DNA of 38,986 bases from Thermomicrobiaceae bacterium (GTDB taxonomy: Bacteria; Chloroflexota; Chloroflexia; Thermomicrobiales; Thermomicrobiaceae), in assembly GCA_014874455.1 (NCBI GenBank), contig JADBJL010000046.1:1-38986 (forward strand), in the 5' to 3' direction. Numbering within the stretch: position 1 is the stretch's first letter; each line of letters starts with the position of its first letter. Positions 11,184 through 27,794 of this stretch are shown in pieces. A model generated the notes under the pieces. It was not told the origin of the DNA. It was given only the letters and a program-made list of their open reading frames with translations, and did no database searches. The translations under genes were made by a program, and so were the position numbers.

Positions 11184-11731
11184 AGGCACGCGTGCCGAGC
11201 GCGGCGGGGCGAGGAAGGCCGAAAGTGATTTTCACCGGAGAGGATCATACAGCTAGCGCCGCCGGGGAGCACGGAGCCGCGTGGTACTGAGCAGTGTTTG
11301 GACACCTGGTGGACAAGAGCTGGCCACGGATTGGCCAACTCTGTGACTGGTCGTCGCCCCGCCTGTCTCCTACATTATGTTGCGGAGTTGTGAACGGCAC
11401 CGAGCGAACCAGGAAGCAGGCGACCTACCCAGGCGAGAGGCTTACGGTCTGGCCCTGAGTGGCGCATCGTGGGGGGACATTTCGATCTTCTCCCATCAGC
11501 CATCGGCGCTGAACGGCAGTCCCCGCGTCACGCCACTGGCGGGCTTCGCGCCCTCGTCGGGAGGTGGCACAGCACCAGGGTTTTGAACCGGTAGATGCGA
11601 GGTGATGTCGAGCGAGCGCATGGCGAGAGGCTCCAGTACGGGCAACTGAAGATCGTATACCTGATGTTTCGGCAGCGAAGAGACGCGGGTCGTAAGATGG
11701 GCGCCTGGCCCGCGCGGAGCGAGTGGCGCAA
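11184..11731. other. Long non-coding region upstream of the glycan operon
   Basis: No credible gene is seen here. Two TGGCCA palindromes (11321-11326 and 11332-11337) start 11 bases apart, one helical turn, and look like a small operator. A TACATTAT sequence (11371-11378) resembles a -10 box but lacks a convincing -35. GTGTTTGGACAC (from 11294) is a short inverted repeat. The frame of the next gene is open from 11595, but nothing upstream of 11826 looks like protein. Confidence 0.3.
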
Positions 11732-11763
11732 CCGGCCGATCCAGAGACCCTACGATCGGCCGG
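11732..11763 (+). terminator. Attenuator-like hairpin in the operon leader
   Basis: CCGGCCGATC (11732-11741), a 12-base loop, and GATCGGCCGG (11754-11763) form a perfect 10-bp stem. It is followed by CTCTGTTCTT, a loosely U-rich tail, about 60 bases before the ATG at 11826. It could be a leader attenuator or an operator; the U-tract is imperfect. Confidence 0.35.
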
Positions 11764-11825
11764 CTCTGTTCTTGAGAAAGTCGTCTCGCCAGTCCACCAG
11801 TACAGGGTATGGAGGGGAGAGCCTC

Positions 11826-14162
11826 ATGGAACATCGTCCTGTATTCGAGCACCGGGGCACTCGCAGCCCGATCTATCCGCCAGAGGGTTCGGTCTCCGGA
11901 AATGGTCACAACGCGGAGCCGGCAGGCCCCGCTCCCCTTTCGGTGATCGCGCCGACACGCAACGAAGCGGACAACATCGCGCCGCTCGTCGCCCGGCTGG
12001 AGCATGTGCTTCCCGACGGTTCCGAGATCATCTTCGTCGATGACAGCGACGACGAGACGCCAGCGATGGTCGAGTCGGTAGCCTTGCGCTCGCGCTACCC
12101 GATCCGCTTGATCCATCGTCCTCCTGGCCAGCGGGCCGGTGGCCTGGGTGGGGCGGTCGTCGCCGGGCTGCGCGCCGCCCGTTCGGCCTGGGCCTGCGTC
12201 ATGGACGCGGACTTGCAGCACCCGCCGGAGTTGATCCCGCGCCTGCTGGCTCAGGCCAGGTTGACGCAGGCCGACCTGGTGATCGCCAGCCGGTACTGCG
12301 ACGAGGGGAAGGCCGAGGGGCTCGACGGGTTCCGCACGGCGATCTCCCGCACCTCCACCACGGCTGCGCGCCTGGCCTTCCCGCGCCGGCTGCGGCGAGT
12401 GAGCGACCCGATGAGCGGGTTCTTCCTCCTCCGGAAAGACCTGATCGACCTCGACGCCCTGCGGCCGCGCGGCTTCAAGATCTTGCTCGAGATCCTGGTG
12501 CGGAACCCACGCCTCAAGGTGAGCGAGGTCGGTTTCGCGTTCGGCAAGCGGCATGCCGGCGAGAGCAAGGCCTCGCTGCGCGAGGGGTTCCGCTACCTGG
12601 CCCACCTCGGCACCTTGCGGCTCGGGGAGGACGCGCTGCGCTTCTCCGCCTTCGCCGCGATCGGCCTCTCGGGCCTGGTGGTGAACACGCTCGTCCTGCT
12701 CGCCGGTACTGAGCTCGTCGGTTTCCATTACCTGCTCTCCGTCGTCTTCGCCACCTGGGCGTCGACGCTCTGGAACTTCAGCCTGACTGATACCTGGGTG
12801 TTCGGCGACCGCCGGCAGGCCAACCGCTGGGGTGAGCGGCTCGTGATGTTCGCGTTCGTCAATACGCTGGCCCTGCTGGTGCGCGGCCCGATGATCTATG
12901 TCCTGACCTCCCTGGTGGGCGTCTACTACGTCCTCTCGAACATCATCTCGCTCGTGGCCCTGTCGCTCCTGCGCTACGGGATGTCGGACGCCTGGATCTG
13001 GAAGGTCACGCGCCAGCCGCGGGCGCGTGGCCCGTACGGCTATGACATCCACGGGATCGTTACCGTGTGGTCGGAGGCCTGGCTACCTGAGCTCGAGCGC
13101 TTCCTCACGGCCGAGCCGATCGAGCGGCCGACGATCCGGGTGCGGATCGGCGGGCTGCGCTCACCCGGCCGACTCGGCCGAGCGGGCATGGTGAGCGCAA
13201 CCCCCGACGGCCGGCGGTTCTTCTACGACGACGGCCTCGGCCCACTGGGGTTCTGGATCGACGTCACCATGGGTGAAACCGTCGAGGTGATCGCCTCGCC
13301 CTTCCTGCGCCGGTCGCCGCACGTGCTCTACACCAACGTCGTGGAGCCGATCCTGCGCTGGACGTTCGTCAGTAAGGGTTACGCCCTCGTCCATGGCGCC
13401 TGCATCGCCTTCGGAGACGAAGCCTACCTGGTGACGGCGCGCACCGACACTGGCAAGACGACGACGATCCTGCGCGTGCTCGACCGCCAGCGCCGGGCTA
13501 CCGACACCGGCGCCTTCCTCTCCGACGACCTGACGCTGCTCGGCCCTGACGGCCGGGTGCTGTGTTATCCGAAGCCGATGACGATCAGCCGGCACACGGT
13601 GGCCGCCGTCAACACGCCGGTTCTCTCGCGCCGGCAGCGGCTCGGACTCTGGGTACAGAGCCGGCTCCACTCGCGCGAAGGGCGAAGGTTCGCTCTTCTG
13701 CTCGCCCGCACACGCTTGCCGGTTGCCACGATCAATGCTGTGGTGCAGTGGATCGTGCCGCCCCCGAAGTACCACATCCAGCAGCTCGTGCCCCGTGCGA
13801 AGTGTGCGCGTGAGGCGAGATTGGCCGGCATGTTCGTCATCGAGCGTGGCAGTCAAGACGAGGTCCTGCTGGACGATCGCCAGGCTCTGGATACCCTGTT
13901 GAGCAACAGTGACGACGCCTACGGGTTCCCGCCCTACCCCGCCATCCGCCACTACTTGTACCGGCTTGACGGGCACGATCTGCGCCCGATCGAGGAGCAG
14001 ATCGTCGCCCAGGCGCTGAGCGGCGTACCGGCTCGCTTACTGCGCAGTAGCACGATGGACTGGTGGCAGCGCATCCCGACGCTGGTCAACCTGCGCGACG
14101 CACGGCCCCCGGTCGAGCAGCCGGCACCACCGGTCGTCGCGACCGGCGCGAGCGCAACGTAA
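11826..14162 (+). CDS. Fused GT2 glycosyltransferase, GtrA flippase-like and HprK-like P-loop protein
   Basis: A 778-residue fusion. About 38-260 is a family 2 glycosyltransferase of the DPM1/ArnC kind (SVIAPTRNEADNI, IIFVDDSDDETP, VMDADLQHPPE with the DxD, then FKILLEILVR), which should load a sugar onto a polyprenyl phosphate. About 270-395 is a GtrA domain of four TM segments (FAAIGLSGLVVNTLVLLAG; LWNFSLTDTWVF), a type linked to lipid-sugar translocation. The C-terminal half has a P-loop TARTDTGKTTT (537-547) and FLSDDLTLLGPDG (about 563-575), resembling HPr kinase-like proteins. ATG 11826 follows GGAGGGGAG; the frame is open upstream, but that stretch does not look like protein. It heads a seven-gene operon. 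The role of the kinase-like part is unknown. Confidence 0.85.
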   Translation: MEHRPVFEHRGTRSPIYPPEGSVSGNGHNAEPAGPAPLSVIAPTRNEADNIAPLVARLEHVLPDGSEIIFVDDSDDETPAMVESVALRSRYPIRLIHRPPGQRAGGLGGAVVAGLRAARSAWACVMDADLQHPPELIPRLLAQARLTQADLVIASRYCDEGKAEGLDGFRTAISRTSTTAARLAFPRRLRRVSDPMSGFFLLRKDLIDLDALRPRGFKILLEILVRNPRLKVSEVGFAFGKRHAGESKASLREGFRYLAHLGTLRLGEDALRFSAFAAIGLSGLVVNTLVLLAGTELVGFHYLLSVVFATWASTLWNFSLTDTWVFGDRRQANRWGERLVMFAFVNTLALLVRGPMIYVLTSLVGVYYVLSNIISLVALSLLRYGMSDAWIWKVTRQPRARGPYGYDIHGIVTVWSEAWLPELERFLTAEPIERPTIRVRIGGLRSPGRLGRAGMVSATPDGRRFFYDDGLGPLGFWIDVTMGETVEVIASPFLRRSPHVLYTNVVEPILRWTFVSKGYALVHGACIAFGDEAYLVTARTDTGKTTTILRVLDRQRRATDTGAFLSDDLTLLGPDGRVLCYPKPMTISRHTVAAVNTPVLSRRQRLGLWVQSRLHSREGRRFALLLARTRLPVATINAVVQWIVPPPKYHIQQLVPRAKCAREARLAGMFVIERGSQDEVLLDDRQALDTLLSNSDDAYGFPPYPAIRHYLYRLDGHDLRPIEEQIVAQALSGVPARLLRSSTMDWWQRIPTLVNLRDARPPVEQPAPPVVATGASAT

Positions 14163-14244
14163 TGCAAAAGAGTAACCGGCCTCGACGCCGGACACCGGTT
14201 TGTCTCTATGGTGCACTGTGTTTCGCGCAGGGATGTGAGCGGCA

Positions 14245-15870
14245 ATGAGGCTCGATACCGAAACGCGACGCCGCGTTGGGAGCGGCAGATCACTCAGCAC
14301 CGCGCTCCCCTGGATCGCAGCTCACCCCTGGCCTCGCCGCGCGCTGGTGGCCGTCGGAGCGGCAGCCACGGTCGACCGGCTGGTGCTGGCGCTTGCGCTG
14401 GTGGCGGGCGCGGCGCTTCGGCTCTGGCAGATCAACCGCTTCGGCCTGAACAGCGACGAGGCGGTCTATCTGGGGCAAGCAGCGGCCATCGCTGGAGACC
14501 CGATCCTCAGCCAGTTCTTCCCGATCTTCCGCGCCCATCCGCTCCTCTTCCAGTTCATCCTGGCGCTCGCCTTCCCCATCGGTGGCACGGACGGATCCGA
14601 CCTGGTCGGTCGCCTCATCTCCGTCACCGTCGGATTGGCAACGGTGTACCTGGCCTATCGTGCTGGCACGCGGCTCTACGGGCGGCGCGTCGGGGCTATC
14701 GCCGCGCTGTTCCTGGCGCTCATGCCATACCACGTCGTCGTGACGCGCCAGATCCTGCTCGATGGCCCGATGACGCTCGGCGCCACACTCAGCCTCTACC
14801 TGGTGGCCCGCTTCGCAGCGACCGAGCGCCCGGTGTGGCTCTACGCCGCCGGGGCCGGCATGGGGCTGACCTTCCTGGCCAAGGAGACCGGCATCATCCT
14901 CCTGGGCAGCATCTACGCCTTCCTCGCCCTGGCGCCGGAGATCCGGTTTCGCCTGCGCGACCTCGCGCTCTCCACCGCGATCATGGCCCTGGTCATCGCC
15001 CCCTTCCCCCTCTCGATCATGCTCGCCAGCGGCGGTGGCTCGCAGCGCGCTCACCAGTACCTCGTCTGGCAACTGTTCCGGCGGCCTAACCACGAGTGGA
15101 CGTTCTATCCCTCGACCGTACCGCTCGCCATCGGCCCACTCCTCATCCTGACAGCGCTCCTCGGGCTCTGGCTGGCTCGTCGCCGGTGGAGCTGGCAAGA
15201 GAAGCTGCTCATCGCCTGGATCGCGGTGCCGATGCTCTTCTTCCAGTCCTGGCCGACGAAAGGGTTCCAGTACCTCCTCCCGATCGCGCCACCGCTCGCG
15301 ATCCTCGCCGCGCAGGCAGTCACCCAGCTCGGACAGCGGGCGACCGCCAGCAAGATCTGGCGCGCGGGGTGGCTCGCTCCGCTGCTGGCCGGCGCGATCG
15401 CGCTGACGCTGCTGATCCCGAGCTGGACACAGATCCAGACCTCGGCTTCAGAGCGGTTCCTCGCCGGCTCGGGCGGCGTTCCGGGCGGGCGCGAAGCGGG
15501 AGAGTGGATCCGCGAGAACACCCCGGAGGGAGCGCGGTTCATGACCGTCGGGCCGTCGATGGCCAACATCATCCAGTTCTATGGGCATCGCCAAGGGAAG
15601 GGACTCTCCGTCAGCCCGAACCCGCTGCACCGTAACCCGACGTACGAACCGATCCTCAACCCCGATCTCCAGCTCCGCAGCGGCGAGCTCCAATATGTCG
15701 TCTGGGACTCGTTCTCGGCAGGCCGTTCGCCGTTCTTCTCCGAGAAACTGCTCAGCTACGCCCGGCGCTATCACGGTCGGGTCGTGCACACCGAGTCGAT
15801 CCCGGTGGTCGCCCCTGACGGCTCGGTCGTGCAGAAGCCGGTCATCGTTATCTACGAGGTACGCCCATGA
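14245..15870 (+). CDS. GT39/ArnT-like membrane glycosyltransferase
   Basis: A 541-residue polytopic protein with about 11-12 TM segments of the PMT/ArnT (GT-C) superfamily, which transfers sugars from polyprenyl-phosphate donors to acceptors outside the membrane. The first extracytoplasmic loop carries NSDEAVYLGQA, whose acidic pair D71-E72 matches the catalytic DE of the fold. The motif HPLLFQFILAL and the ARF..VTRQILLDGPMTL region are also typical. A soluble domain of about 130 residues ends the protein. It very probably uses the lipid-linked sugar made by the preceding GT2-GtrA protein. The gap to that gene is 82 bases and contains only a short imperfect hairpin (AACCGG/CCGGTT). Its stop overlaps the next gene by four bases (ATGA). 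Confidence 0.86.
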   Translation: MRLDTETRRRVGSGRSLSTALPWIAAHPWPRRALVAVGAAATVDRLVLALALVAGAALRLWQINRFGLNSDEAVYLGQAAAIAGDPILSQFFPIFRAHPLLFQFILALAFPIGGTDGSDLVGRLISVTVGLATVYLAYRAGTRLYGRRVGAIAALFLALMPYHVVVTRQILLDGPMTLGATLSLYLVARFAATERPVWLYAAGAGMGLTFLAKETGIILLGSIYAFLALAPEIRFRLRDLALSTAIMALVIAPFPLSIMLASGGGSQRAHQYLVWQLFRRPNHEWTFYPSTVPLAIGPLLILTALLGLWLARRRWSWQEKLLIAWIAVPMLFFQSWPTKGFQYLLPIAPPLAILAAQAVTQLGQRATASKIWRAGWLAPLLAGAIALTLLIPSWTQIQTSASERFLAGSGGVPGGREAGEWIRENTPEGARFMTVGPSMANIIQFYGHRQGKGLSVSPNPLHRNPTYEPILNPDLQLRSGELQYVVWDSFSAGRSPFFSEKLLSYARRYHGRVVHTESIPVVAPDGSVVQKPVIVIYEVRP

Positions 15871-17294
15871 TCCGCTGGCGAGCTTTGTTCACCGGTTTGA
15901 CGCTCCTGGCCTGCCTGGCCCTTCTCACCGGGCTGCTGCCACAGCGCGCGGCGCGGGCTGCCGAGCCGCAGCCGAAAACACCGATCAAGCACGTCATCGT
16001 GCTCATGCAGGAGAACCACTCCTTCGACAACTACTTCGGCACCTACCCCGGCGCCGACGGGATCCCGGAGGGGGTCTGCATGCCGGTCGACCCCGCCGAC
16101 CCAGGGGGCGAATGCATCGAGCCGTTCCATATCGGCAACCGGCCGATCGAAGACCTCGACCACAGCACCGCGACCGCCCTGAACCAGTACAACGGCGGGA
16201 AGATGGACGGCTTCGTCTGGGCCCTGCGACTGCGCAACCAGGAGGGCACGATCGCCATGGGTTACTACGACGGTCGCGACCTGCCCTACTACTGGAACCT
16301 GGTCGACCGGTACGTCCTGTTCGATCGCTTCTTCAGCTCGGCCATGGGCGGCAGCGTCTGGAATCACATGTACTGGGTCGCCGCCCAGCCGGGCAGCGAG
16401 GAGAACCGGATCCCTCCCGAGGGATACGGCGACGACGTGATCACCATCTTCGACCGGCTGGAGGAGCGCGGCATCTCCTGGAAGTTCTACATCCAGAACT
16501 ACGACCCCACCCTCACCTTCCGCACGATGGGCCAGGGTGGCCCCCGCGCTGCCCAAGTGGTGTGGTGCCCGCTGCTCAACTTCCCACGCTTCATCGACAA
16601 TCCCGATCTGTTCAGCCACATCGTGCCGCTGGACGAGTACTTCACCGACCTCGAGAACGGCACCTTGCCCTCGGTAGCCTACATCGTGCCTTCGGGCGCC
16701 AGCGAGCACCCGCCGGGGAGCATCCGAGCAGGGCAGCGGTTCGTGAAGTCGCTGATCCAAGCCCTGATGCGCAGCGACGCCTGGTACCGCTCGGCCTTCA
16801 TGGTCACCTACGACGATTGGGGAGGCTGGTACGACCACGTTCCGCCGCCGAAGGTCGATGACTACGGCTACGGCTTTCGCGTCCCAGCCTTCCTGGTCAG
16901 CCCGTATGCCAAGCGCGGCTATATCGATCACACCGAGCTCGATTTCACCTCGATCCTCAAGTTCATCGAGGAGAACTGGGGGCTGAAGCCACTCGCTGAG
17001 CGCGACGCCCGGGCGAACAGTATCAGCAACGCCTTCGACTTCTCCCAGCCACCCCGGCCGCCGAGCTTCATCCCGGAGGAGCGAGCCAGCGACGAGGAGC
17101 GCCCCGGCCCGCGGCGGGGCGTGATCTACACCGCCTACGGGATGGGGCTCTTTCTGGCCGGGTCGGTCATCGGCTGGGCTGCGGTCGACTCCCGTCGCCG
17201 CCGCGGGACTGACCCTGTTTATCCCCTGCGCAGGCTCACCCGCCGCCGGAAACGCATGATGCCGAGGAGATCGAGGGGGGCTTCAGACCGATGA
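15867..17294 (+). CDS. Membrane-anchored phosphoesterase, phospholipase C/acid phosphatase family
   Basis: A 475-residue exported enzyme. A signal peptide (1-32, ending ARAAE) is followed by the phosphoesterase-family hallmark HVIVLMQENHSFDNYFG (42-58). VLFDRFFSSAMGGSVWNHMY, STATALNQY and VTYDDWGGWYDHVPPP provide further conserved active-site segments. Family members hydrolyse phospholipids or phosphomonoesters. Near the C-terminus a single TM segment (about 418-442) and a strongly basic tail (RRRR, RRRKR) place the catalytic domain outside and the tail inside. The start ATG overlaps the GT39 stop and its own stop overlaps the next start (ATGA each time), so translation is coupled. It may act on a phosphorylated surface glycan or lipid; the substrate is not readable. 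Confidence 0.88.
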   Translation: MIRWRALFTGLTLLACLALLTGLLPQRAARAAEPQPKTPIKHVIVLMQENHSFDNYFGTYPGADGIPEGVCMPVDPADPGGECIEPFHIGNRPIEDLDHSTATALNQYNGGKMDGFVWALRLRNQEGTIAMGYYDGRDLPYYWNLVDRYVLFDRFFSSAMGGSVWNHMYWVAAQPGSEENRIPPEGYGDDVITIFDRLEERGISWKFYIQNYDPTLTFRTMGQGGPRAAQVVWCPLLNFPRFIDNPDLFSHIVPLDEYFTDLENGTLPSVAYIVPSGASEHPPGSIRAGQRFVKSLIQALMRSDAWYRSAFMVTYDDWGGWYDHVPPPKVDDYGYGFRVPAFLVSPYAKRGYIDHTELDFTSILKFIEENWGLKPLAERDARANSISNAFDFSQPPRPPSFIPEERASDEERPGPRRGVIYTAYGMGLFLAGSVIGWAAVDSRRRRGTDPVYPLRRLTRRRKRMMPRRSRGASDR

Positions 17295-19369
17295 GACCGC
17301 TGAGAGGTTATCTCGCGAGCGTTGCAGTCGTCCTGGTGCTCATCGCCCTCGGCACGCTGCCCACGACGCCGGCCCGAGCCGCCGAGGAGTCGCCGCTTCC
17401 GACCGCCTTGACGATCCAGCCGCTCGATCCGGTGACGGTTGGGGAAAGCTTTACCATCGTCGCCCAGCTCACGAGCGCCACCGGCGACATCCCCGGCGCC
17501 GTCAACAACGAGGCACTCGAGCTGCTCATCGATGGCGTGCACGAGCGGCGCACCCGGACGAACTTCGCTGGCGTCGCATCGTTCCCGGTCCGGCGCTTCC
17601 TCCCAGTCGGGCAATACACCGTGACGGTGATCTATGCCGGCAGCCGCTCCCTCCAACCGGCAAGCGCCATGGCAACGCTGACCATCGCGCCAGCGGTGCT
17701 CGAGATCAAGACGGTCCCGGCCCTCGTCGGGGTCACTTTCTCGTTCAATGGGCAGATGCTCCGCTCCGGCGAGGACGGGGTGGCGCGCATCGAGATCCCT
17801 ACCCCTGGTATCTACCCGCTCGAGGTGCTTCCCGTCGAGCGGAACGATCTCCGCGCCGAGTTCAGCCGCTGGGGCGATGAGATCTTCACCACCACGCGTG
17901 AGGTCGTGATCCCGGAGATGAAAACGCTCGAAGTCGGATTCGACGTTAGCTACCAGGCGAGCTTCTCGTTCGTCGACCTCGCCGGCCTGCCGGTCGATCC
18001 GAAGCGGATCACCTCGATCACGCTCAAGAGCAGCCTGGGCGAGACGCGCACGCTCACGAGCCCAGGACCGGAGTGGTTCAAGGCCGGCCGGGTCGTGCGG
18101 CGCCAGAATGGGCTGGAGGAGGTTCCTGTCCAGTGGTCGGTCGAGAGCGTCATCATCGGCGGCACCAACGTGGTGAACCAGTTCCAGCAACGGTTTTTCC
18201 TCCAGCCCAACGATCTGCGCCAGATCGAGCTGCTGCTCTACACGGCCCGCTTCACGGCGCGGGATGCGCTGTTCGGCTTCTCCATCGGCGAGGGCATCAA
18301 GCTCCAATACCCGGACGGATCGGTCGAGGTGATCCCCTTCGGGCCTGACCGCCAGGCATTCGTCACCTCGCTGCCGCGTGGGGAGTACCTCGTCAGCGTC
18401 GCTGGCGCTCCCGGCCTCTCGCCTGCCTCGCCCATCGCGCTCTCGAAGAACCAGGAAGCGGAGCTACTGGTCATCAGCTACCTCGACATGGCCGTGGCCG
18501 GCGTGCTGGTCGCGCTGCTGGCGACTGGGCTCTTGCTCGTGGGCCGACCTCATCTCCTGACCTGGCTCAAGCTCCCTGTCCCGTCCCACGGCTACCGCAC
18601 GGCAGCACTGGCGGTCACCGGCGCGACGCTGGTGCTCGGATTGACCGTCTTCACGCTCGGATCCGTCCGGGAGCCGTCGAAGTCGACCGCGACACCGCTG
18701 CCCGGTCAGAGCCGGGCAGGTCCACCGCCGAAAAGCACGGCCGCGACCGGAGCTCTCAACGAGGTCGAGGCCGTGGTACCACGATCGGCCGCTGCCACCC
18801 CTGTCGTCCTGCCGGACGAGGCGATCGCCGATATGTTCCGAGCGTTCTGGGAGCAGAACGGCGGGCTAGCCACCTTCGGCCACCCGATCAGCGAGGCCGT
18901 CGAGTGGCGAGACCCGCAGACCGGCCAGGTAGTGACCGTGCAGGAGTTCGAGCGGGCACGGCTCGAGCACCACCCGGAGCTCAGCGGCACGCCGTACGAG
19001 ATCCAGCTCGGGCTCCTCGGATACGAGGACGCAGCCTGGCGCGGCTTCCTCGACACCGAGCCATTCCGGCCGCGCGAGCCGGTACCAGAAGAGCGCGAGG
19101 ATTGCACCTACTTCTGGCAGACCGGGCACTGGGTCTGCTCGTACTTCCGGGCCTACTGGCGCAGCCGCGGGCTGGAGTTCGGCGATCCCGACGTATCGCT
19201 GCGCGAGTCGCTGGCGCTCTTCGGCTATCCGATCAGCGAGGAGTTCGTCGATCCACAGACGGGCATCCGGGTGCAGTACTTCGAGCGAGCGCGGCTCGAG
19301 TATCACCCGGAGCACGCCGGGACACCGCACGAGGTGCTCCCCAGCCGGCTGGAGAGGGGGGAGCCGTGA
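17291..19369 (+). CDS. Surface protein with Ig-like domains and two FGxPIS/HPE repeats
   Basis: A 692-residue envelope protein of unrecognised function. A signal peptide (1-31) is followed by an Ig-like bacterial repeat domain (about 35-135; VGESFTIVAQLTS, PVGQYTVTVIYAGS) and further beta-rich sequence to about 390. Two TM segments lie at about 397-418 and 434-457. After a Pro/Ser-rich linker come two copies of a module of about 60 residues (515-577 and 618-690). These share F-x-A-[FY]-W, FG[HY]PIS, DPQTG, [EY]FERARLE[HY]HPE and GTP[YH]E. The module is common in Chloroflexota extracellular proteins and may bind wall or glycan; its function is unestablished. The start overlaps the phosphoesterase stop (ATGA) and the end overlaps the GH99-like gene (GTGA). 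Confidence 0.78.
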   Translation: MRPLRGYLASVAVVLVLIALGTLPTTPARAAEESPLPTALTIQPLDPVTVGESFTIVAQLTSATGDIPGAVNNEALELLIDGVHERRTRTNFAGVASFPVRRFLPVGQYTVTVIYAGSRSLQPASAMATLTIAPAVLEIKTVPALVGVTFSFNGQMLRSGEDGVARIEIPTPGIYPLEVLPVERNDLRAEFSRWGDEIFTTTREVVIPEMKTLEVGFDVSYQASFSFVDLAGLPVDPKRITSITLKSSLGETRTLTSPGPEWFKAGRVVRRQNGLEEVPVQWSVESVIIGGTNVVNQFQQRFFLQPNDLRQIELLLYTARFTARDALFGFSIGEGIKLQYPDGSVEVIPFGPDRQAFVTSLPRGEYLVSVAGAPGLSPASPIALSKNQEAELLVISYLDMAVAGVLVALLATGLLLVGRPHLLTWLKLPVPSHGYRTAALAVTGATLVLGLTVFTLGSVREPSKSTATPLPGQSRAGPPPKSTAATGALNEVEAVVPRSAAATPVVLPDEAIADMFRAFWEQNGGLATFGHPISEAVEWRDPQTGQVVTVQEFERARLEHHPELSGTPYEIQLGLLGYEDAAWRGFLDTEPFRPREPVPEEREDCTYFWQTGHWVCSYFRAYWRSRGLEFGDPDVSLRESLALFGYPISEEFVDPQTGIRVQYFERARLEYHPEHAGTPHEVLPSRLERGEP

Positions 19370-20550
19370 GATCGAGGCTGTATCGCACAGCAACCGCCAT
19401 CGCCAGCGCTAGGATCGGGATCTGGCCACACTTCATCGCCCTTCTCCTGGTCACGGTCACCGCGCTCGTGGCCTCCGCCCCGGCCCTGGCTGCAACCGAG
19501 CCGATCAAGACCGACCCGATCCCGGTGCTCGCGTACTACTACATCTGGTTCGACCCGACCTCCTGGAACCGGGCCAAGAGCGACTACCCGCTGCTCGGCC
19601 GCTACTCGAGCGACGACCGGGCCGTCATGCAGCAGCACATTCGCTGGGCCAAGCAGGCAGGGATCGACGGGTTCATCGTGAGCTGGAAGAGCACGCCGAC
19701 GCTCAACCGCCGGCTCGGGCAGCTCGTCGAGCTGGCCGAGAGCGAGCACTTCAAGCTCCTGATCATCTACCAGGGGCTCGACTTCGAGCGAAAGCCGATC
19801 CCAGTCGAGAAGGTCGCCAGCGACCTCGATTACTTCGTCTACCGCTGGGGGAACCATCCGGCTTTCGACCTCTTCGGCCGCCCGGTCGTGATCTGGTCGG
19901 GCACCTGGGAGTTCTCGACCGAGGAGATCGCGAGCGTCACCGAGCGCTTCCGCGATCGCATCTACATCCTCGCGTCCGAGCGCAATCTCGAGGGCTACCG
20001 GCGAGTGAGGCACCTGGTCGACGGCAATGCCTACTACTGGTCGTCGGTCGATCCCGAGACCTACCCTGGCTACGAGGAGAAGCTGCAGGAGATGGGTGAG
20101 GCCGTCCACGCGGACGGCGGCCTCTGGATCGCCCCGGCAGCGCCGGGCTTCGATGCCCGGCTCATCGGCGGTACCCGGGTAGTCGAGCGCAAGGACGGCG
20201 AGACGCTGAAGCGGGAGCTGGAAGCGGCGCTCAGTTCGTCGCCTGACGCGATCGGCCTGATCAGTTGGAACGAGTTCAGCGAGAACAGCCACATCGAGCC
20301 GAGCGAGAAGTACGGCGCGCGCTACCTGGAGGTGCTGGCGCAGATCCGGGGGCTACCCACGCCGGACATCGGCGACTTCGACTCAGACGCCCCCGCGGCT
20401 ACCGGCGCCGGCTACGGGCTCCCGATGCTCGGGGCGATGATCCTGCTGGTGATCGCGAGCCTCGCCGCCATCGTCTGGAGAGAAGCCCACCGGCACAAGC
20501 AACCGGCTGACCCGGGGAACAGCGACGCGACGGCCGCCGACATGCTCTAG
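19366..20550 (+). CDS. Membrane-anchored GH99-like glycoside hydrolase
   Basis: A 394-residue exported protein resembling the GH99/endo-alpha-mannosidase-like TIM barrel group. The N-terminus is a long signal peptide ending ALAAT (about 43). The barrel opens with PVLAYYYIWFDPTSWNRA and continues with HIRWAKQAGIDGFIVSWKS and PAFDLFGRPVVIWSGTWEF. It ends with ISWNEFSENSHIEPSEKYG (about 300), the WNE-x-E-x-x-x-IEP segment expected to carry catalytic acids. A TM segment (about 350-368) and a short basic tail anchor it with the barrel outside. The GTG start 19366 overlaps the previous stop; the frame is open to 18904, but that part shadows the previous gene. A similar domain is fused to a metallophosphoesterase in the convergent gene. 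Confidence 0.82.
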   Translation: MRSRLYRTATAIASARIGIWPHFIALLLVTVTALVASAPALAATEPIKTDPIPVLAYYYIWFDPTSWNRAKSDYPLLGRYSSDDRAVMQQHIRWAKQAGIDGFIVSWKSTPTLNRRLGQLVELAESEHFKLLIIYQGLDFERKPIPVEKVASDLDYFVYRWGNHPAFDLFGRPVVIWSGTWEFSTEEIASVTERFRDRIYILASERNLEGYRRVRHLVDGNAYYWSSVDPETYPGYEEKLQEMGEAVHADGGLWIAPAAPGFDARLIGGTRVVERKDGETLKRELEAALSSSPDAIGLISWNEFSENSHIEPSEKYGARYLEVLAQIRGLPTPDIGDFDSDAPAATGAGYGLPMLGAMILLVIASLAAIVWREAHRHKQPADPGNSDATAADML

Positions 20551-20570
20551 AGCGAAGAGGGGCATCGTAC

Positions 20571-23500
20571 ATGGCACCATACAACCACAGCAGCAATCGA
20601 CCATCTCCTGTGATTCGGTCGCCCCTGCAGCCGATTCACACGAGGCACGCTGGTCGGTCCCCCCTCGCGCGATTCACCGTCGCGCTCGTGCTCTGCATTG
20701 GTCTCCTGCAGCTCGCCGGCTTCGGGACTCCAGTCGCCGCGGCGAGCTGTGGAACGAGCGGGCCGAGTAATGGCACCTACACGATCACGCTCTGCTTCAC
20801 CCAACCAGCCGACGGCGCCTCGCTCAGCGATGACACGACGGTCACCGTCAGCGTGACCACGACCGGGAGCGCGCCGAGCGTGCGGCGCGTGCAGTTCTCC
20901 CTCAATGGCGCGTACCTCCTAACCGACTTTAACGCGCCGTACACATTCACGCTCCCCACGCAGCAGTGGGCCGACGGCGGGTACCAGCTCAGTGCTGTGG
21001 CCATGCTCCGAGACGGGTTCACGACCGCGGCTACCACTATCGCTGTCTCCTTCGCGAACGGCATCACCAGCCCTCCACCCATGCCAACAGGGTTTACGCC
21101 CACGACGGGGACCACCCCGCCTTCCGGCCAGCCGTTCATCGTCGCCGCCGTCGGCGATGGGCCAGACGGCGGTCCGAACGCAGGAGCGGTGGCCAGTCTC
21201 ATCGACTCGCTCAATCCTAATCTCTTCCTCTATCTCGGAGATGTCTACGAGAAAGGAACCTATACCGAGTTTTACAACTGGTATGGTCACAGTGGGCAAC
21301 TGTTCAACAAGTACGGCAACATTACCAATCCGATTGTGGGTAACCACGAATATGAGAAGGGTCAGGCACCTGGATATTTTCGCTACTGGCAGAACCCGCC
21401 GAACTACTATAGTGTCGATGCGGGTGGGTGGCACTTCATCGCGCTCAACTCCACCAGCCAGTTCAACCAGTTCTCCCCTTCCAGCGGCCAGTACCAATGG
21501 CTCGCCCAGGACCTCCAGGCACACCGCGACGCCTGCACCATCGTCTTCTTCCACCATCCTCGCTACAGCATCGGCCCGCAGGGCGACACGCCGAGTCTCG
21601 ATCCAATTTGGGACCTGCTGTTCCAGTACGGCGTCGAGCTTGTCCTTGTCGGCCATGACCACGATTACCAGCGCTGGACTGCCCTCGATGACGCCGGCCA
21701 GCCTCACCCCACCGGCGTCACCCAGATCGTCGTCGGCACCGGAGGGCATGGTATCCAGAACTTCGTACGGAGCGACTCTCGCGTCGTGAAAGCGTTCGGA
21801 ACTGCGCCCCAGGCGTACGGTGTACTCCGCCTGGCGTTGTTGAACAACCAGGCCAATCTCGCCTTCGTGAACATCCAGAACCAGACGCTTGACTCCACGT
21901 CGGTTCCCTGCCATGGCCCGAACGATGGGAGTGGGGGCGGCGGGGGCGACACCCAGGCGCCCACCGTACCGGCCAACCTCTCGGCCACGGTGGCGAGCAG
22001 CACCCAGGTCGACCTAAGCTGGGCTCCCTCCACCGACGACGTCGGCGTCGCTGGCTACACCGTCTACCGTGACGGGGCCGCCATCGCCACCGTCGACGGG
22101 GCGACCACCAGCTACGCCGATACCACCCTCGCCGCCGGTATGACTTACAGCTACACGGTGGACGCCTTCGACGCTGCCGGCAACCACTCCGCCCAGAGCG
22201 CTCCGGCGACGGTCACTACTCCGACACAGGGGTTCCTGTTCACCGACGGCTTCGAGACCGGCGACCTCTCGCAGTGGACCAGTTCGACCGGCCTCATCGT
22301 TCAGCAGCAGGAGGTCTTCAGCGGCAGCTACGCCGCCCGCGGCACCTCCACCGGCAGCGCCACCTATGCCACCAAGCAGCTCTCCAGCAGCCAGACCGAC
22401 CTCTACTGCCGCCTGCGCTTCAAGCGAATCAGCCAGGGCAGCAATACGGTCTACCTGCTCCGCTTCCGCACCGGTACCGGCAGCTCGCTGCTCGGGCTCT
22501 ACGTGACCAGCACCGGCAAGCTCGGCTTCCGCAACGACGTGGCCGGCCAGAGTACCACCAGCTCGCTCACCGTGACCACTGGCGAGTGGCACGAGGTTCA
22601 GGTCCACCTCGTCATCAACGGCTCATCCAGCCTGGTCGAGGTGTGGTACGACGGCACCAAGGTCGACGCCCTGAGCAAGACGCAGTCGCTCGGCACCAAC
22701 CCGATCGGCCGCATCCAGCTCGGCGAGAACTCAACCGGCCGCACCTACGACTTCGCCTTCGACGAGGTGGCGGTCGATACCGCCTTCATCGGCGGTGGCG
22801 GCGGTGGTGACACCACCCCGCCGGAGACGACTATCACCAGCGCACCGCCTGCGACGACCGACCAGACGAGCGCGACCTTCGAGTTCACGGCGAGCGAGCC
22901 GAACAGCACCTTCCAGTGCCAGCTCGACGGCGGCACGAGCCAGGCCTGCACCAGCCCCTGGGCCTACAGCGGCCTGGCGACGGGTACCCACACCTTCACC
23001 GTAGCCGCCACCGACCAGGCCGGCAACACCGACCCGACGCCGGCAACCTATACCTGGGAGATCACCGCGGCCCAACAAGCTCCGGACACGACGCTGACCT
23101 CGACTCCACCGTCCCTTACCAATCAGGCTACGGCGACCTTCAGCTTCACATCCGACGATCCCCAGGCGACCTTCGAGTGCCAGCTCGACGCGAGCTCCTT
23201 CACCGCCTGCCAGAGCCCATTCACCACGACCACGCTCGCTGAAGGCACCCATTCTTTCGCCGCCCGGGCAGTCAATGCTGTGGGGTCGGATCCCAGCCCG
23301 GCAACCTGGCAGTGGACAGTCGACCTCACGCCGCCGACGGCGCCGGCTGACCTCGCTGCCACCGTCGACGGTAGCACGGGACACGTCACGCTCACGTGGA
23401 CAGCCGCGACGGATATGAATGGGATCGCCGGGTACGACGTACTGCGGGATGGGACGCTCCTTGCGGCGCTCGGATCGGTGACCAGCTACACTGACTCGAC

Positions 23501-24161
23501 GACCCAGCCTCAGACAACATACTCCTACACCGTCCGAGCCCGCGACCAGGCAGGCAATACCTCGCCTGAGTCCGCTCCGGCGACGGCCACCACCCCACCC
23601 CAGGGCCCTCTCTTCAGCGATGACTTCGAGAGCGGTACTCTGTCGAAGTGGTCGACCGTCAGCGGGCTGACCATCACCACCGAGGCACCCTACAGCGGCA
23701 GCTACGCCGCCCGCGGCACCTCCACCGGCAGCGCCACCTACGCCCTCGCCACCCTGAGCCAGACCGCCAGCGAGCTCTACTACCGCATCTGGTTCAACGT
23801 GGTCTCGCAGGGCTCGAATACCGTCTACCTGCTCAAGTTCCGTACCGCCACCAACGCCTCGCTCGGCGGCGTCTACATCTCCAGCACCGGCCGGCTCAGC
23901 TACCGCAGCGACGTCGCCTCTCGCAGCGTGACGACCTCGACGAGCGTCACCCAAGGCACCTGGCACCAGCTCCAGGTCCGCCTCGTCACCGGCAGCAGCG
24001 GGCTCATCGAGATCTGGTACGACGGAACCAAGGTGGTCAGCGCCGCCGAGAACTTCGGCACCAACCTGATCGGCCGCATCCAGCTCGGCGAGAACTCCTC
24101 CGGCCGCACCTACGACATCGTCTTTGACGACGTGGCGGCCGGCACGAGCTTCATCCCGTGA
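20571..24161 (+). CDS. Large secreted metallophosphoesterase with Fn3 and LamG-like modules
   Basis: An exported 1196-residue protein. After a signal peptide (to about 58) comes an Ig-like domain (60-165). The calcineurin-like metallophosphoesterase follows (about 185-440), with GDG, LYLGDVYEKG, VGNHEYEKG, VFFHHPRYS and LVGHDHDYQRW as metal ligands. Then come Fn3 (about 463-550), a jelly-roll/LamG-like domain (555-741), two Ig-like TSAPP/TSTPP repeats (747-835, 837-917), a second Fn3 (918-1012) and a second LamG-like domain (1014-1196). Closest known activities are secreted purple-acid-phosphatase-like phosphatases; the other modules probably bind carbohydrate. ATG 20571 follows GAAGAGGGG. 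It lies 20 bases after the GH99-like gene. The catalytic part around 21200-21450 is visibly less GC-rich than its flanks, suggesting separate ancestry. Confidence 0.86.
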   Translation: MAPYNHSSNRPSPVIRSPLQPIHTRHAGRSPLARFTVALVLCIGLLQLAGFGTPVAAASCGTSGPSNGTYTITLCFTQPADGASLSDDTTVTVSVTTTGSAPSVRRVQFSLNGAYLLTDFNAPYTFTLPTQQWADGGYQLSAVAMLRDGFTTAATTIAVSFANGITSPPPMPTGFTPTTGTTPPSGQPFIVAAVGDGPDGGPNAGAVASLIDSLNPNLFLYLGDVYEKGTYTEFYNWYGHSGQLFNKYGNITNPIVGNHEYEKGQAPGYFRYWQNPPNYYSVDAGGWHFIALNSTSQFNQFSPSSGQYQWLAQDLQAHRDACTIVFFHHPRYSIGPQGDTPSLDPIWDLLFQYGVELVLVGHDHDYQRWTALDDAGQPHPTGVTQIVVGTGGHGIQNFVRSDSRVVKAFGTAPQAYGVLRLALLNNQANLAFVNIQNQTLDSTSVPCHGPNDGSGGGGGDTQAPTVPANLSATVASSTQVDLSWAPSTDDVGVAGYTVYRDGAAIATVDGATTSYADTTLAAGMTYSYTVDAFDAAGNHSAQSAPATVTTPTQGFLFTDGFETGDLSQWTSSTGLIVQQQEVFSGSYAARGTSTGSATYATKQLSSSQTDLYCRLRFKRISQGSNTVYLLRFRTGTGSSLLGLYVTSTGKLGFRNDVAGQSTTSSLTVTTGEWHEVQVHLVINGSSSLVEVWYDGTKVDALSKTQSLGTNPIGRIQLGENSTGRTYDFAFDEVAVDTAFIGGGGGGDTTPPETTITSAPPATTDQTSATFEFTASEPNSTFQCQLDGGTSQACTSPWAYSGLATGTHTFTVAATDQAGNTDPTPATYTWEITAAQQAPDTTLTSTPPSLTNQATATFSFTSDDPQATFECQLDASSFTACQSPFTTTTLAEGTHSFAARAVNAVGSDPSPATWQWTVDLTPPTAPADLAATVDGSTGHVTLTWTAATDMNGIAGYDVLRDGTLLAALGSVTSYTDSTTQPQTTYSYTVRARDQAGNTSPESAPATATTPPQGPLFSDDFESGTLSKWSTVSGLTITTEAPYSGSYAARGTSTGSATYALATLSQTASELYYRIWFNVVSQGSNTVYLLKFRTATNASLGGVYISSTGRLSYRSDVASRSVTTSTSVTQGTWHQLQVRLVTGSSGLIEIWYDGTKVVSAAENFGTNLIGRIQLGENSSGRTYDIVFDDVAAGTSFIP
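22231..22792 (+). repeat. LamG-like module, copy 1
   Basis: This encodes residues 555-741 of the metallophosphoesterase. It is a DNA-level direct repeat of 23611-24155. Blocks such as the stretch from about 22319 (GSYAARGTSTGSATYA) and the stretch from about 22703 (IGRIQLGENS) are almost identical between the copies at nucleotide level. Confidence 0.75.
23611..24155 (+). repeat. LamG-like module, copy 2
   Basis: This encodes residues 1014-1195 and is a duplicate of 22231-22792. Preceding each copy is an Fn3 domain, so the duplicated unit is Fn3 plus LamG-like. The conserved blocks are separated by diverged stretches, as expected from an older duplication or from gene conversion. Confidence 0.75.
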
Positions 24162-24182
24162 GCGTGACCGGAGGAGGTGAGA

Positions 24183-24203
24183 ATGCCTATCGGCGGGCGA
24201 TAG
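24183..24203 (+). other. Six-codon open frame behind a perfect Shine-Dalgarno
   Basis: AGGAGGTGA (24172-24180) is a full match to the anti-SD and is five bases before ATG 24183. That frame reads MPIGGR and stops at TAG 24201-24203, 38 bases before the preferred lipoprotein start. It may be a translated leader, a re-initiation device, or a relic of a former start. Confidence 0.3.
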
Positions 24204-24241
24204 TCACCGGCGACCGGCTGGCGAGAGGAGAAGGGCGACGC

Positions 24242-25225
24242 GTGGAGCGCCGAGCAGGTCGTGGACTGTGGTTCGCAGCCCTCGGGGTGTGCCTGGCGCT
24301 GTCGCTCATGGCCTGCAGCAGCGCGGTGCAGCGGCCGTTCTTCGTGGCCGAGGCGGGGACGATGACGAAGAGCCTCTGCTTCGGCGTCGAGAGCCTGCCC
24401 GGCGGGTTCGAGGTGATCGGCAAGGAGATTTACGACAACGCGGCCGCCGCCAGAGGCACGCCTGATCCAGCACAGCGGCAGCGCGACTACGTGGCCTGGG
24501 GCCGGGTGACCGGGTCGTTCCTGCAGTGGGCCTTCGAGCCGCCGAGCGCCCCCGCGGAGAACGCGGACGGCACGATGTCGGAAGCGGAGATCGAGGCCGC
24601 CCTGGAGCGAGCTCGCCAGGAGATGCTCGAGACCCCCTTCACCGGGGCGACCTGCCGCGTCGACCTCTACGAGACGATCGAGGGGGCACGCCAGGCATTC
24701 GCGGCCGAGGCTGGAGACCTCCTGTCGCAGCCGTCGACGGCGGAGATCGAGCGAGACCTGTTGGGAGACGAGAGCCTCTTCCTGGTCCGCCGGTACGATG
24801 CCCCGCCGATCAGCCGTTTCATCCTCATCGTCCGCCTGCAGAACGTCATCGGGCAGATCACGGTGAGCGCTCCCTGTGACACGCCTACAGGACAGCCCTG
24901 CGCCGTCGCCGAGGATCGGACGCGCTCGCTCGGCACGCTGCTCCTCCGCCGCCTGGCCGAGAGTGCTCCTCTATCCACTCCGGTGTCACAGGGCGAGCCC
25001 GCAGCGACCGACACGACGGTGCGCCAGGAAGCCGAGCGGCTCTGCCCCGAGCGCGACTATACCGGCTGCGTCGCCGCCTACCTCGAGCACGCCCAGCAGC
25101 CCGAGCCGGTCGCGCTGTGCCGGACTGAGTACGGCCAGTGGTTCTTCGAGCCGCCGGCCGGCCGTGTGGGTGAGCACTGCGCTGACGGCGAGGCGAGCAT
25201 CATCGCGATTGTGGGCGGCCAGTGA
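24242..25225 (+). CDS. Putative lipoprotein of unknown function
   Basis: A 327-residue protein I do not recognise. The N-terminus (VERRAGRGLW, hydrophobic core, LSLMAC) is a lipoprotein signal with the lipidated Cys at about 25, so the mature protein should sit on the outer face of the membrane. The rest is soluble and acidic with scattered cysteines. The frame is open from GTG 24158, which overlaps the preceding stop, but GTG 24242 has a GAGAGGAGAAGGG site and starts the signal sequence directly. It is the last gene of the operon. Position suggests a role with the secreted phosphoesterase and GH99-like proteins; there is no direct evidence for any activity. Confidence 0.72.
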   Translation: MERRAGRGLWFAALGVCLALSLMACSSAVQRPFFVAEAGTMTKSLCFGVESLPGGFEVIGKEIYDNAAAARGTPDPAQRQRDYVAWGRVTGSFLQWAFEPPSAPAENADGTMSEAEIEAALERARQEMLETPFTGATCRVDLYETIEGARQAFAAEAGDLLSQPSTAEIERDLLGDESLFLVRRYDAPPISRFILIVRLQNVIGQITVSAPCDTPTGQPCAVAEDRTRSLGTLLLRRLAESAPLSTPVSQGEPAATDTTVRQEAERLCPERDYTGCVAAYLEHAQQPEPVALCRTEYGQWFFEPPAGRVGEHCADGEASIIAIVGGQ

Positions 25226-25230
25226 GGGTA

Positions 25231-25263
25231 GTGCAGGCGCAGGGCAAGCCCCTGCGCCTGCAC
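25231..25263. terminator. 14-bp hairpin after the operon
   Basis: GTGCAGGCGCAGGG (25231-25244), loop CAAGC, CCCTGCGCCTGCAC (25250-25263) form a perfect 14-bp stem five bases after the lipoprotein stop. It has no U-tract. It lies between convergent genes and probably acts as a transcript end or RNA-stabilising structure. Confidence 0.6.
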
Positions 25264-25284
25264 ACCCCCTTCCCGCGCTCCGAG

Positions 25285-25325
25285 CGTGGGCAGCCAGGAT
25301 TGCTCGCTGACCCTGGCTGCCCACG
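25285..25325. terminator. Second 14-bp hairpin between convergent genes
   Basis: CGTGGGCAGCCAGG (25285-25298) pairs perfectly with CCTGGCTGCCCACG (25312-25325) across a 13-base loop. It lies just beyond the stop of the minus-strand fusion gene, so it may serve both transcripts. Confidence 0.6.
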
Positions 25326-25340
25326 TACACCTTAGTGTAC
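25325..25340. terminator. Small hairpin containing a stop codon
   Basis: GTACAC (25325-25330), loop CTTA, GTGTAC (25335-25340). The loop holds the TAA (25332-25334 on the minus strand) of the fusion gene. It is the third hairpin in a row in this convergent gap. Confidence 0.4.
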
Positions 25341-27794
25341 TTGGTACGACCCGCTGTCGAGCACCGCCCCGCTGTCGCTCACGAAGGCCCACTCGTAGTG
25401 GTCGGGATACAGCTTGAGCACCAGTACGCCGAAGGCGTCGTTGCGCCGCACCTCACTGTTGGGCTTGACGGTGCCGAAACTGTACAGGTTCTTCCCCCCG
25501 GTTCCCACCACGAACTCGCGCACCCCACGTGCATCGTCCCGCCCGTCACTCGCGTTCATCGGCGCAAAGCGCTCGTAGTCGTGGTCGTGCCCCACTAAGA
25601 CCACCTCTGCTCCCGACTGGTACAACAGATCCCAGATCGGATCCATCTGGCTGAAGTTCCCGTGCTGCCCAGACGAGTAGCGCGGGTGGTGCCAGAAAGC
25701 CACCACCTGCTTACCCGCATTGGCCGCCAGGTCCGCCTTGAGCCACTCGTACTGCGGCGAGCCAGGCCCGCAGCCGCCCACCTGCGAGCAGTTGGAGTTG
25801 AGGGCATACGCCCGCCAGTTGTTCCCTAGGTCCACCGCGTAATATCCCTTACAACCGCTCTGGCAGCCCGGCTCCGTCGGGGTGGCTCGGTCGCCGAAGT
25901 AGTCGTAGTAGCCGGCCGCGCCGCTGGTCAGGTACTCGTGGTTGCCGGGCACCGGCCGGGTAATGCTCTTGAGTTGGCCCCAGGTGGGATCGTAGCTCTG
26001 CTGGTACTTGGAGAGCGTCCCGTCCTCGTACTGGGTGTCGCCGAGGACGAAGACGTAGTCGGGGCCCTGAGCTGCGGCCACCTGGGCGGTGTACTTGTGG
26101 CGGCAGGCCGAGCTGGTGCCGTTGTTGTTGTTCCAGCTACTCGAGGACGGGTCGCAGGCGATGTCGCCGGCCGCGACGACGACCACCGGGCCACCGCTGG
26201 AGGGCGTGGGGGTCGGCGTCGGGGTCGGTGTAGTGCTGGGCGTCGGGGTCGGCGTCGGGGTGGGCGTGGGCGTCGGGCTGGTACCACCGGACGCCTGGCC
26301 GTCGGTATGCAGGGCGTCCAGGTAAGCGCCGTACCCGGAGCTGGTGGCCCACTCCTGGGCGGATTCGACTGCGGTTCCCTCGCCCCACTCGTTGAAGGTG
26401 GTGATGAGCTGCCACGGCGCGCCGGAGGCCACCATGTCGCGGATGTTCTGCTGCCAGCGGGCGAGGTCGCGACTCAAGCGCGGCTGGCTTTCGAGGGCAT
26501 GCCAGAAGCCCGGTGAGATGGCGTAGGAGTAGCCCTTCTGGTAGTCAGCGGCGACGGCCGGGCTGTACTGGTGCCAGGAGTCGGGCTGATTGGCACAGTT
26601 CCGGTAGCCGGAGAAGACCTTGAGCACCAGGTAGGCACCGAGCTCTCGCGCCACCGGTACCCAGCGGTCCGCCACCTCGCAGGAGCTATCGTCGGCGTTG
26701 TAGACGAAGACGACGAACTTGCCGTTGACCCGGAGATAGTCGGGGTCACTGGCGTACTTGTCGCGGATGTAGGTGAGGTCGGAGCGGATCTCGCTGGTCG
26801 AGAGGTCGCGCTGCCCCTCCTGCTCGTGGTAGATCGCCCACTTGAAGCCGGTGCCGTCGGTCGCCTTCATGATGACGGAGAAGTCGTTGTCGGTGTGGTG
26901 CCCCTGCCCCCACCAGGAGGCGATGCCGGCCTGGATCTTCCCGTACTGCATGGCGGCGATGTGCTGGCGAATGACTGCCGGGTCGGCGGTGTCGTAGTAG
27001 CCGAGAGACGGGTGGTAGTGAGTGAACGGGTAGAGGCCGGACTGCTTCCAGGCTTCAGGGAACCATGGGTAGTAGAAGACAGCCCGGATCGGGAAGTTCA
27101 GGCTGTCACCGGTCGCTGGCGGAGGTGTGGGAGTCGGCGTTGGGCTGGGGGTGGGCGTCGGTGTCGACCCGGAGCCCGGTGTCGGTGTCGCGGTGGGGGT
27201 AGCAGTCGGCGTGGAGTTGTCGGTCGAGTTGGCCGTCTCGACCACGAGCTGGGGTGGGTTCGTCCCCTTCTCGCGGCTCGTCAGCTTCATCTGCGTGGAG
27301 CTGCTCGTAGTCAGCGCCAGGCTAACCACCCCGTTGCCTTTGACCAGCGGCGTGACATCGACGACCGTCCACTGCCCAGCCGCAAAACCGCCGGAACGGC
27401 CGATGACGGTCGACCCGACCGGCGGAGCCGTGTTGTAGGTGATCTTCAGCTCGTCCCAGGTGGTATCCGCCACCGGGCGCACCTCGTATCCGGCACTATG
27501 GGAACTCTCGGCGTAGACCCAGAGGGACGCCTTGACGACCGACCCGCTCAGCCCCTGCACGTTGAAGCGCAGGTAGCTCCGCATCACCGGCGAGCCGTCG
27601 GCTCGCAGTGCGGGGTCGCTACCGTAGTTCCGGCTCGGGTAGACCTGGTAGACGAAGGCGTCAGCCTGGGCAACGAAGCCCAAGCGCTGCGTCGCACCGG
27701 AGGTCTGGCCGCTCCAGGCGACCGAGAGCGCAGCCACGAGGATGCCCAGCACGCTGGCAAAGGCCAGCCAGCGCATGAGTGTGTGCCGTGTCAT
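25332..27794 (-). CDS. Secreted DNRLRE / GH99-like / metallophosphoesterase fusion
   Basis: An 820-residue exported fusion. Positions: signal peptide 1-33; DNRLRE (CBM96-like) beta domain about 38-190 (SYLRFNVQGL, ADTTWDELKITYNTAPPVG); PT-rich linker; GH99-like barrel about 238-500 (AVFYYPWFPEAW, ITTFNEWGEGTAVESA); second PT linker; metallophosphoesterase about 540-820 (AAGDIACDP, LGDTQYEDG, PGNHEY, FWHHPRYS, VGHDHDYERF). Both catalytic motif sets look intact. TTG 27798-27800 is four bases from AAGGAGG and ATG 27792-27794 ten bases; ATG is preferred but uncertain. This one gene combines the activities encoded separately at 19366 and 20571 on the opposite strand. It faces that operon tail to tail. 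Likely role: binding a polysaccharide, cutting it and removing phosphate. Confidence 0.86.
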   Translation of the reverse strand: MTRHTLMRWLAFASVLGILVAALSVAWSGQTSGATQRLGFVAQADAFVYQVYPSRNYGSDPALRADGSPVMRSYLRFNVQGLSGSVVKASLWVYAESSHSAGYEVRPVADTTWDELKITYNTAPPVGSTVIGRSGGFAAGQWTVVDVTPLVKGNGVVSLALTTSSSTQMKLTSREKGTNPPQLVVETANSTDNSTPTATPTATPTPGSGSTPTPTPSPTPTPTPPPATGDSLNFPIRAVFYYPWFPEAWKQSGLYPFTHYHPSLGYYDTADPAVIRQHIAAMQYGKIQAGIASWWGQGHHTDNDFSVIMKATDGTGFKWAIYHEQEGQRDLSTSEIRSDLTYIRDKYASDPDYLRVNGKFVVFVYNADDSSCEVADRWVPVARELGAYLVLKVFSGYRNCANQPDSWHQYSPAVAADYQKGYSYAISPGFWHALESQPRLSRDLARWQQNIRDMVASGAPWQLITTFNEWGEGTAVESAQEWATSSGYGAYLDALHTDGQASGGTSPTPTPTPTPTPTPSTTPTPTPTPTPSSGGPVVVVAAGDIACDPSSSSWNNNNGTSSACRHKYTAQVAAAQGPDYVFVLGDTQYEDGTLSKYQQSYDPTWGQLKSITRPVPGNHEYLTSGAAGYYDYFGDRATPTEPGCQSGCKGYYAVDLGNNWRAYALNSNCSQVGGCGPGSPQYEWLKADLAANAGKQVVAFWHHPRYSSGQHGNFSQMDPIWDLLYQSGAEVVLVGHDHDYERFAPMNASDGRDDARGVREFVVGTGGKNLYSFGTVKPNSEVRRNDAFGVLVLKLYPDHYEWAFVSDSGAVLDSGSYQVH
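26203..26280 (-). repeat. Tandem PT-linker repeat (GH99 to phosphoesterase)
   Basis: GTCGG/GTGGG-rich hexamer-like tandem repeats encode a run of alternating Thr and Pro between the GH99-like and metallophosphoesterase domains. It is slippage-prone and may vary in length between strains. Confidence 0.8.
27121..27214 (-). repeat. Tandem PT-linker repeat (DNRLRE to GH99)
   Basis: The same kind of Thr-Pro coding repeat, here with Ala, Gly and Ser interruptions, separates the DNRLRE domain from the GH99-like barrel. Confidence 0.75.

Follow-up and report, generated by a model that had tools for sequence, protein, structure and literature searches.

The question raised by this locus is why GH99-like glycosidases and metallophosphoesterases (MPEs) stand together twice, once as adjacent genes and once within a single protein, and on what substrate they might act. 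The window, i.e. the whole stretch of 38,986 nucleotides analyzed here, belongs to a 3.37 Mb genome of the genus Thermalbibacter (family Thermomicrobiaceae); T. longus was the relative of the same genus used for comparison. A tightly packed plus-strand operon, from 11595 to 25225, encodes successively GT2-GtrA (probably the first gene), PMT_2, PF04185, Ig-like, GH99, MPE and lipoprotein products, and is convergent with the gene of the fused protein (Table 1). Pfam matches for the GH99, MPE and fused proteins are all above the curated cut-offs.

Table 1. Genes of the plus-strand operon and the convergent fused gene (positions in the window).
Product	Coordinates	Strand	Evidence
GT2 glycosyltransferase with GtrA/DPMS-type membrane domain, polyprenyl-phosphate-sugar synthase-like	11595..14162	+	Pfam PF00535 2.3e-24, PF04138 3.2e-17
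PMT_2-type multi-pass glycosyltransferase	14245..15870	+	Pfam PF13231 6.6e-21; 7 TM-like segments
PF04185 phosphoesterase, acid phosphatase / phospholipase C type	15867..17294	+	Pfam 2.3e-77; signal-like N-terminus
Ig-like (Big_3_5) membrane protein	17291..19369	+	Pfam 3.7e-9
Free GH99, clade B, with signal segment and C-terminal TM anchor	19366..20550	+	PF16317 1.1e-14
Secreted calcineurin-like MPE with Big_7, fn3 and two LamG/polysaccharide-lyase-like tails	20571..24161	+	PF00149 7.1e-13
Predicted lipoprotein (LMACS lipobox-like), last gene of the operon	24158..25225	+	ORF
Fused CBM96-GH99 (clade A)-MPE, secreted, PT-rich linkers	25332..27794	-	Pfam CBM96 7.6e-30, Glyco_hydro_99 2.2e-16, Metallophos 1.3e-11

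The PF04185 protein also matches the NCBIfam models PC_PLC and acid_phos, and the MPE of the operon matches purple acid phytase (2.7e-10). Stop/start overlaps join the Ig-like gene to both of its neighbors; the C-terminal part of its product contains repeated “FGHPISE...EFERARLEHHPE” units. The free GH99 gene uses a GTG start overlapping the stop of the preceding gene, its product carries a TM-like segment at 345-363, and the MPE gene begins 20 bases downstream, as the first-pass annotation had described. The lipoprotein has no Pfam family in a Pfam search, and neighbor clustering found its relatives at six of the loci compared, in Thermomicrobiaceae only. The fused gene starts with an ATG at 27794, preceded by a GGAGG about 9 bases upstream, and its product, with visible PT-rich linkers, contains the DNRLRE domain already noted in it (NCBIfam DNRLRE_dom 9.2e-20) together with GH99 and MPE. 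An AAA/NACHT-like (STAND-type) protein (28701-30791) adjoins the fused gene and has relatives in the Thermomicrobiaceae loci examined. Secretion-type signals or membrane segments are seen in the proteins of the locus, which supports their predicted secreted or surface location, as initially proposed.

The domain assignments hold in both places. The two GH99s score 54.8 and 60.3 bits against PF16317 (cut-off 33), with partial matches (about 110 of 341 positions for the fused protein), and the two MPEs score 45.7 and 49.9 bits against PF00149 (cut-off 21.5). GH99-related proteins without catalytic machinery exist, according to Robb 2017 as cited in PMC13063451. The catalytic Glu pair is present in both GH99s of the window, as NEFSE in the free protein and NEWGE in the fused one, aligned with NEWHE of BxGH99 and BtGH99 (E333 region of BxGH99); the free GH99 matches BxGH99 by phmmer at 5.7e-11, with NEW.E aligned. 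More widely, the ExxE pair is found in 83 of the 92 GH99 domains from the 75 clade-A loci described below. The metal ligands of the MPEs (motifs GDxxY, GNHE and GHxHxYE) are almost invariant: the ligand columns are kept in 34-35 of 35 domains, the first Asp in all 23 domains covering that position, and the GDxxY tyrosine typical of purple acid phosphatases in 31 of 35. An AlphaFold2 model of the fused protein (mean pLDDT 81.8, pTM 0.46, flexible linkers) resembles, in Foldseek searches, GH99 endo-mannosidases (BtGH99, E 3.9e-12, TM by target 0.63) and, for its MPE domain, purple acid phosphatases and phytases (TM about 0.7 by target length).

The two GH99s are nevertheless of different kinds. 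In a tree of 111 Chloroflexota GH99 domains, the fused and the free domain lie far apart, the first in clade A (20 rows, support 100/100), the second in clade B (10 rows, 100/100). Thus the statement that the minus-strand gene joins the same two domain types is correct at the family level only; the GH99s come from two deeply separated subfamilies, which rules out that the locus gained its second GH99 by a recent duplication. Each sampled Thermomicrobiaceae genome bearing GH99 has exactly one member of each clade, 7-15 kb apart. Members of the two clades also occur together at one locus of a distant Chloroflexota MAG (L045/L153) and at L048/L167. The cluster of PMT_2, PF04185 and GH99-B recurs in Chloroflexota and Actinomycetota, the PMT_2 gene being kept beside GH99-B in L043, L045, L143, L145, L153-155, L159, L167, L193, L197 and L199. 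The last three, from Micromonospora, have this cluster adjoining GH99-A and a CBM96 protein (with a beta-helix in the one protein scanned), with no MPE within reach.

To survey the association, named species genomes were scanned with a clade-A profile, which gave 75 loci in Chloroflexota, Actinomycetota and a few other groups; MPE and PF04185 profiles were built for this survey, the latter seeded partly with fused proteins. GH99-A and MPE lie in one frame at 12 of the 75 loci, namely in Thermomicrobiaceae (L133-L137), other Chloroflexota (L140, L147, L152, L168) and Actinomycetota (L144, L170 from Phycicoccus, L172). The CBM96-GH99-MPE architecture of the window is found again in L133-L137, L140, L152, L170 and L172. 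GH99-A is in frame with PF04185, placed on either side of it, at nine further loci of the 75 (L145, L150, L158, L160, L176, L177, L178, L190, L196). Pfam recognizes Metallophos above its cut-offs in L144, L152 and L170, and PF04185 in L145, L150, L158 and L178; the remaining PF04185 fusions were called by our own profile, the weakest being L177 (1.5e-12).

Counting fused and nearby genes together, MPE or PF04185 accompanies 39/75 clade-A loci versus 0/79 other Chloroflexota GH99 loci assessed with the same profiles (Fisher 6e-16, with related rows, many short contigs and a control restricted to one phylum). A looser motif scan detected one MPE among the control loci (L071). PMT and PF04185 genes are likewise enriched at clade-A loci. 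The other 36/75 clade-A loci, many of them on short contigs, have no linked MPE or PF04185, and include well-flanked Streptomycetaceae loci with sigma-70 fusions. A GH99-MPE linkage general to Chloroflexota is ruled out: MPE is present in only 11/101 surveyed loci. Ten of these are clade A/B loci; in the remaining one, L071, the MPE was recognized by motif only and stands next to a different GH99.

A separate branch of clade A groups L180, L182, L185, L186, L188, L189 and L191, from Streptomycetaceae, Actinoplanes and Catenulispora. GH99-A there ends a sigma-70 protein in L182 and L188 (both scanned), as it does in the Streptomyces plasmid protein WP_332880637.1 (L209:6792-8804). Such proteins may serve to sense the glycan at the membrane.

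How often the fusions arose was read from the GH99-A tree. The MPE fusion labels need 8 changes, and so do the PF04185 labels; branches with good support force 2 of the former and 7 of the latter. By this reading of the sequences the joining of GH99-A to phosphoesterases is a repeated event. Within one MAG, sister GH99-A genes carry a C-terminal MPE (L147) and a C-terminal PF04185 (L145). A split form exists as well: in L153/L045 a CBM96-GH99 gene is followed, 257 bases on, by a separate MPE. In L130:9538-11382, GH99-A and MPE share a frame broken by a TAA just ahead of a degenerate NDWAG motif, which looks like a decayed fusion.

Exchange also affects the operon. Where the window has the 20571-24161 gene, T. 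longus and L133 encode a protein with a near-identical tail and a PHP-type head instead of the MPE, with motifs HxH, TDH, NHP and SDxH (SDTH in these two). A conserved adjacency of the plus-strand GH99-MPE pair is thereby ruled out, the PHP head standing there in the close relatives examined. This head scores 71.5-72.9 bits against NCBIfam NF038032 (CehA/McbA; below the cut-off of 80) and 19.7-24.7 bits against the PHP Pfam (below the cut-off of 26.4); a profile search of the PDB gave no match for it and its structure model has a pLDDT of 31.6. By sequence it is nearest to the CehA/McbA metallohydrolases, a group whose members are not necessarily phosphoesterases. Since MPE and PF04185 are both fused to GH99-A, and the MPE head is swapped for a PHP head, three unrelated predicted hydrolase folds are found beside these GH99s or in chain with them.

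The whole genome encodes only two GH99s, both in the window, versus 12 Metallophos matches; because of this scarcity of GH99 and of the recurrence in two phyla, the GH99-MPE linkage is more than chance. The single PF04185 gene of the genome is also inside the window. Taken with the repeated fusions, the split versions and the MPE/PF04185 exchange, these data strongly support the functional coupling postulated in the first-pass annotation, and we consider it very probable that clade-A GH99s and phosphoesterases work together.

That annotation also knew of no described system of this form. We found neither a PF04185-GH99 fusion nor any GH99-phosphoesterase system in the literature searched, most subscription journals lying outside it; a sulfate analogue, however, is described. 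In PbSulf1-GH195 of Polaribacter, a sulfatase and a GH99-related endo-mannanase form one protein, and the sulfatase has to work before the glycosidase; OpSulf1 and OpGH195 of Ochrovirga are the two-gene version (PMC13063451). The likeness, by sequence, lies in an ester-removing domain associated with a GH99-related endo-glycosidase in fused and split forms. The two differ in that PbSulf1-GH195 comes from a Bacteroidota polysaccharide-utilization locus, GH195 is only distantly related to GH99, and the presumed ester is phosphate here and sulfate there. With Metallophos or PF04185 in place of the S1 sulfatase, the window system is not a sulfatase-GH195 member, and by analogy it may work like one.

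Its parts can be compared with characterized enzymes, activities here being predicted. The GH99s resemble the endo-alpha-1,2-mannosidases/mannanases BtGH99, BxGH99 and human MANEA by family match, barrel fold in the model and NEWxE pair, but share about 20% identity with them, form separate clades and, in the fused protein, are attached to CBM96 and a phosphoesterase. The MPE domain has the fold and metal-ligand motifs of purple acid phosphatase and wheat purple acid phytase; it differs in being bacterial, joined to GH99 and about 20% identical. PC-PLC/AcpA-type enzymes are the counterparts of the operon gene at 15867 and of the PF04185 domains fused to GH99-A in L145, L150, L158 and L178.

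Chances are about even, in our estimate, that the fused protein and the operon form a secreted set processing a phosphate-bearing alpha-mannan-like glycan, most likely exported by the cell itself. The CBM96 of the fused protein would hold the glycan. By analogy with the sulfate system, the purple-acid-phosphatase-like domain would take off a phosphate ester and the GH99 domain would then cut the uncovered chain internally. The operon would add the membrane-anchored clade B GH99 and more ester hydrolases (PF04185, and an MPE or PHP head), while its polyprenyl-phosphate-sugar synthase and PMT-type transferase suggest that the cell would export the glycan and then trim it. A phosphorylated glycan as the common substrate is itself a balanced proposition. 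An own glycan is slightly favored over a foreign one because of the link with the synthase and PMT genes, the lack of GH92/GH76 and the membrane anchor of GH99-B.

The converse reading, a nutrient system for a foreign phosphorylated mannan such as fungal phosphomannan, would agree with the secreted, CBM-bearing architecture, with the alpha-mannans on which characterized GH99 enzymes act (PDB titles) and with the single GH38 alpha-mannosidase of the genome. But this GH38 is on another contig, the neighbors at the locus are glycosyltransferases rather than transporters or exo-mannosidases, and a profile search of the genome found no GH92 or GH76 mannosidase, so that full breakdown of mannan is improbable; we regard the foreign-mannan reading as unlikely. 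On the contig of the GH38 (C94; L214:4731-8018 and 11280-13373), a second CBM96-fn3-MPE, without GH99, lies about 3.3 kb from it with an oxidoreductase in between. Secreted MPEs that occur alone, elsewhere in this genome and on the T. roseum plasmid, together with the purple-acid-phosphatase/phytase-like fold, could also mean that MPE and PF04185 act outside the cell as unspecific phosphatases scavenging phosphate, with GH99/CBM96 tethering them to a surface glycan or loosening it and no common substrate. This is quite unlikely, as it hardly explains the preference for one GH99 clade, the repeated fusion and the conserved GH99 catalytic residues.

The main rival, which we hold to be rather unlikely, places the glycan on a lipid anchor, phosphoinositol-mannoside-like or polyprenyl-phosphate-linked: PF04185 and MPE would cut the phosphate link and GH99 the mannan, freeing or recycling the glycan. 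PF04185 is indeed a family of phospholipases C and acid phosphatases, GT2-GtrA and PMT_2 share the operon, and the linkage is distributed over Actinomycetota and Thermomicrobia. These two groups hold mannosylated phosphoinositol lipids, a point that the literature searched did not confirm. For Thermomicrobia, no report of phosphoinositol lipids was found there; the genome paper of T. roseum, in which neither inositol nor mannose is mentioned, describes diol lipids and an unusual wall rich in protein. The genome does encode an inositol-1-phosphate synthase (one PF01658 gene; PF07994 gave no match), but on another contig, among heptosyltransferase-type genes, and the fused protein, secreted and CBM-bearing, is not obviously directed to the membrane.

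Returning to the processing of an exported phosphoglycan, its broadest form would be a new and widespread system of Chloroflexota and Actinomycetota, in which a distinct GH99 clade cuts a phosphorylated surface glycan only once a phosphoesterase of one of several unrelated folds, fused or neighboring, has taken off phosphate. We advance this tentatively, as less than an even bet; if true, the enzyme specificity would be new, and so would be, in these phyla, a whole class of mannan-like bacterial polymers bearing phosphate. That one glycosidase clade is fused time and again to phosphoesterases of unrelated families argues strongly, on genomic grounds, for a phosphate-bearing glycan as their common substrate, and these fusions name the exact candidate proteins. 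If our reading is right, the “remove, then cut” principle known for sulfate would extend to phosphate, two uncharacterized GH99 clades would gain an activity, and a phosphorylated polymer, so far overlooked, would be indicated in the envelopes of thermophilic Thermomicrobia, of other Chloroflexota and of common soil actinomycetes.
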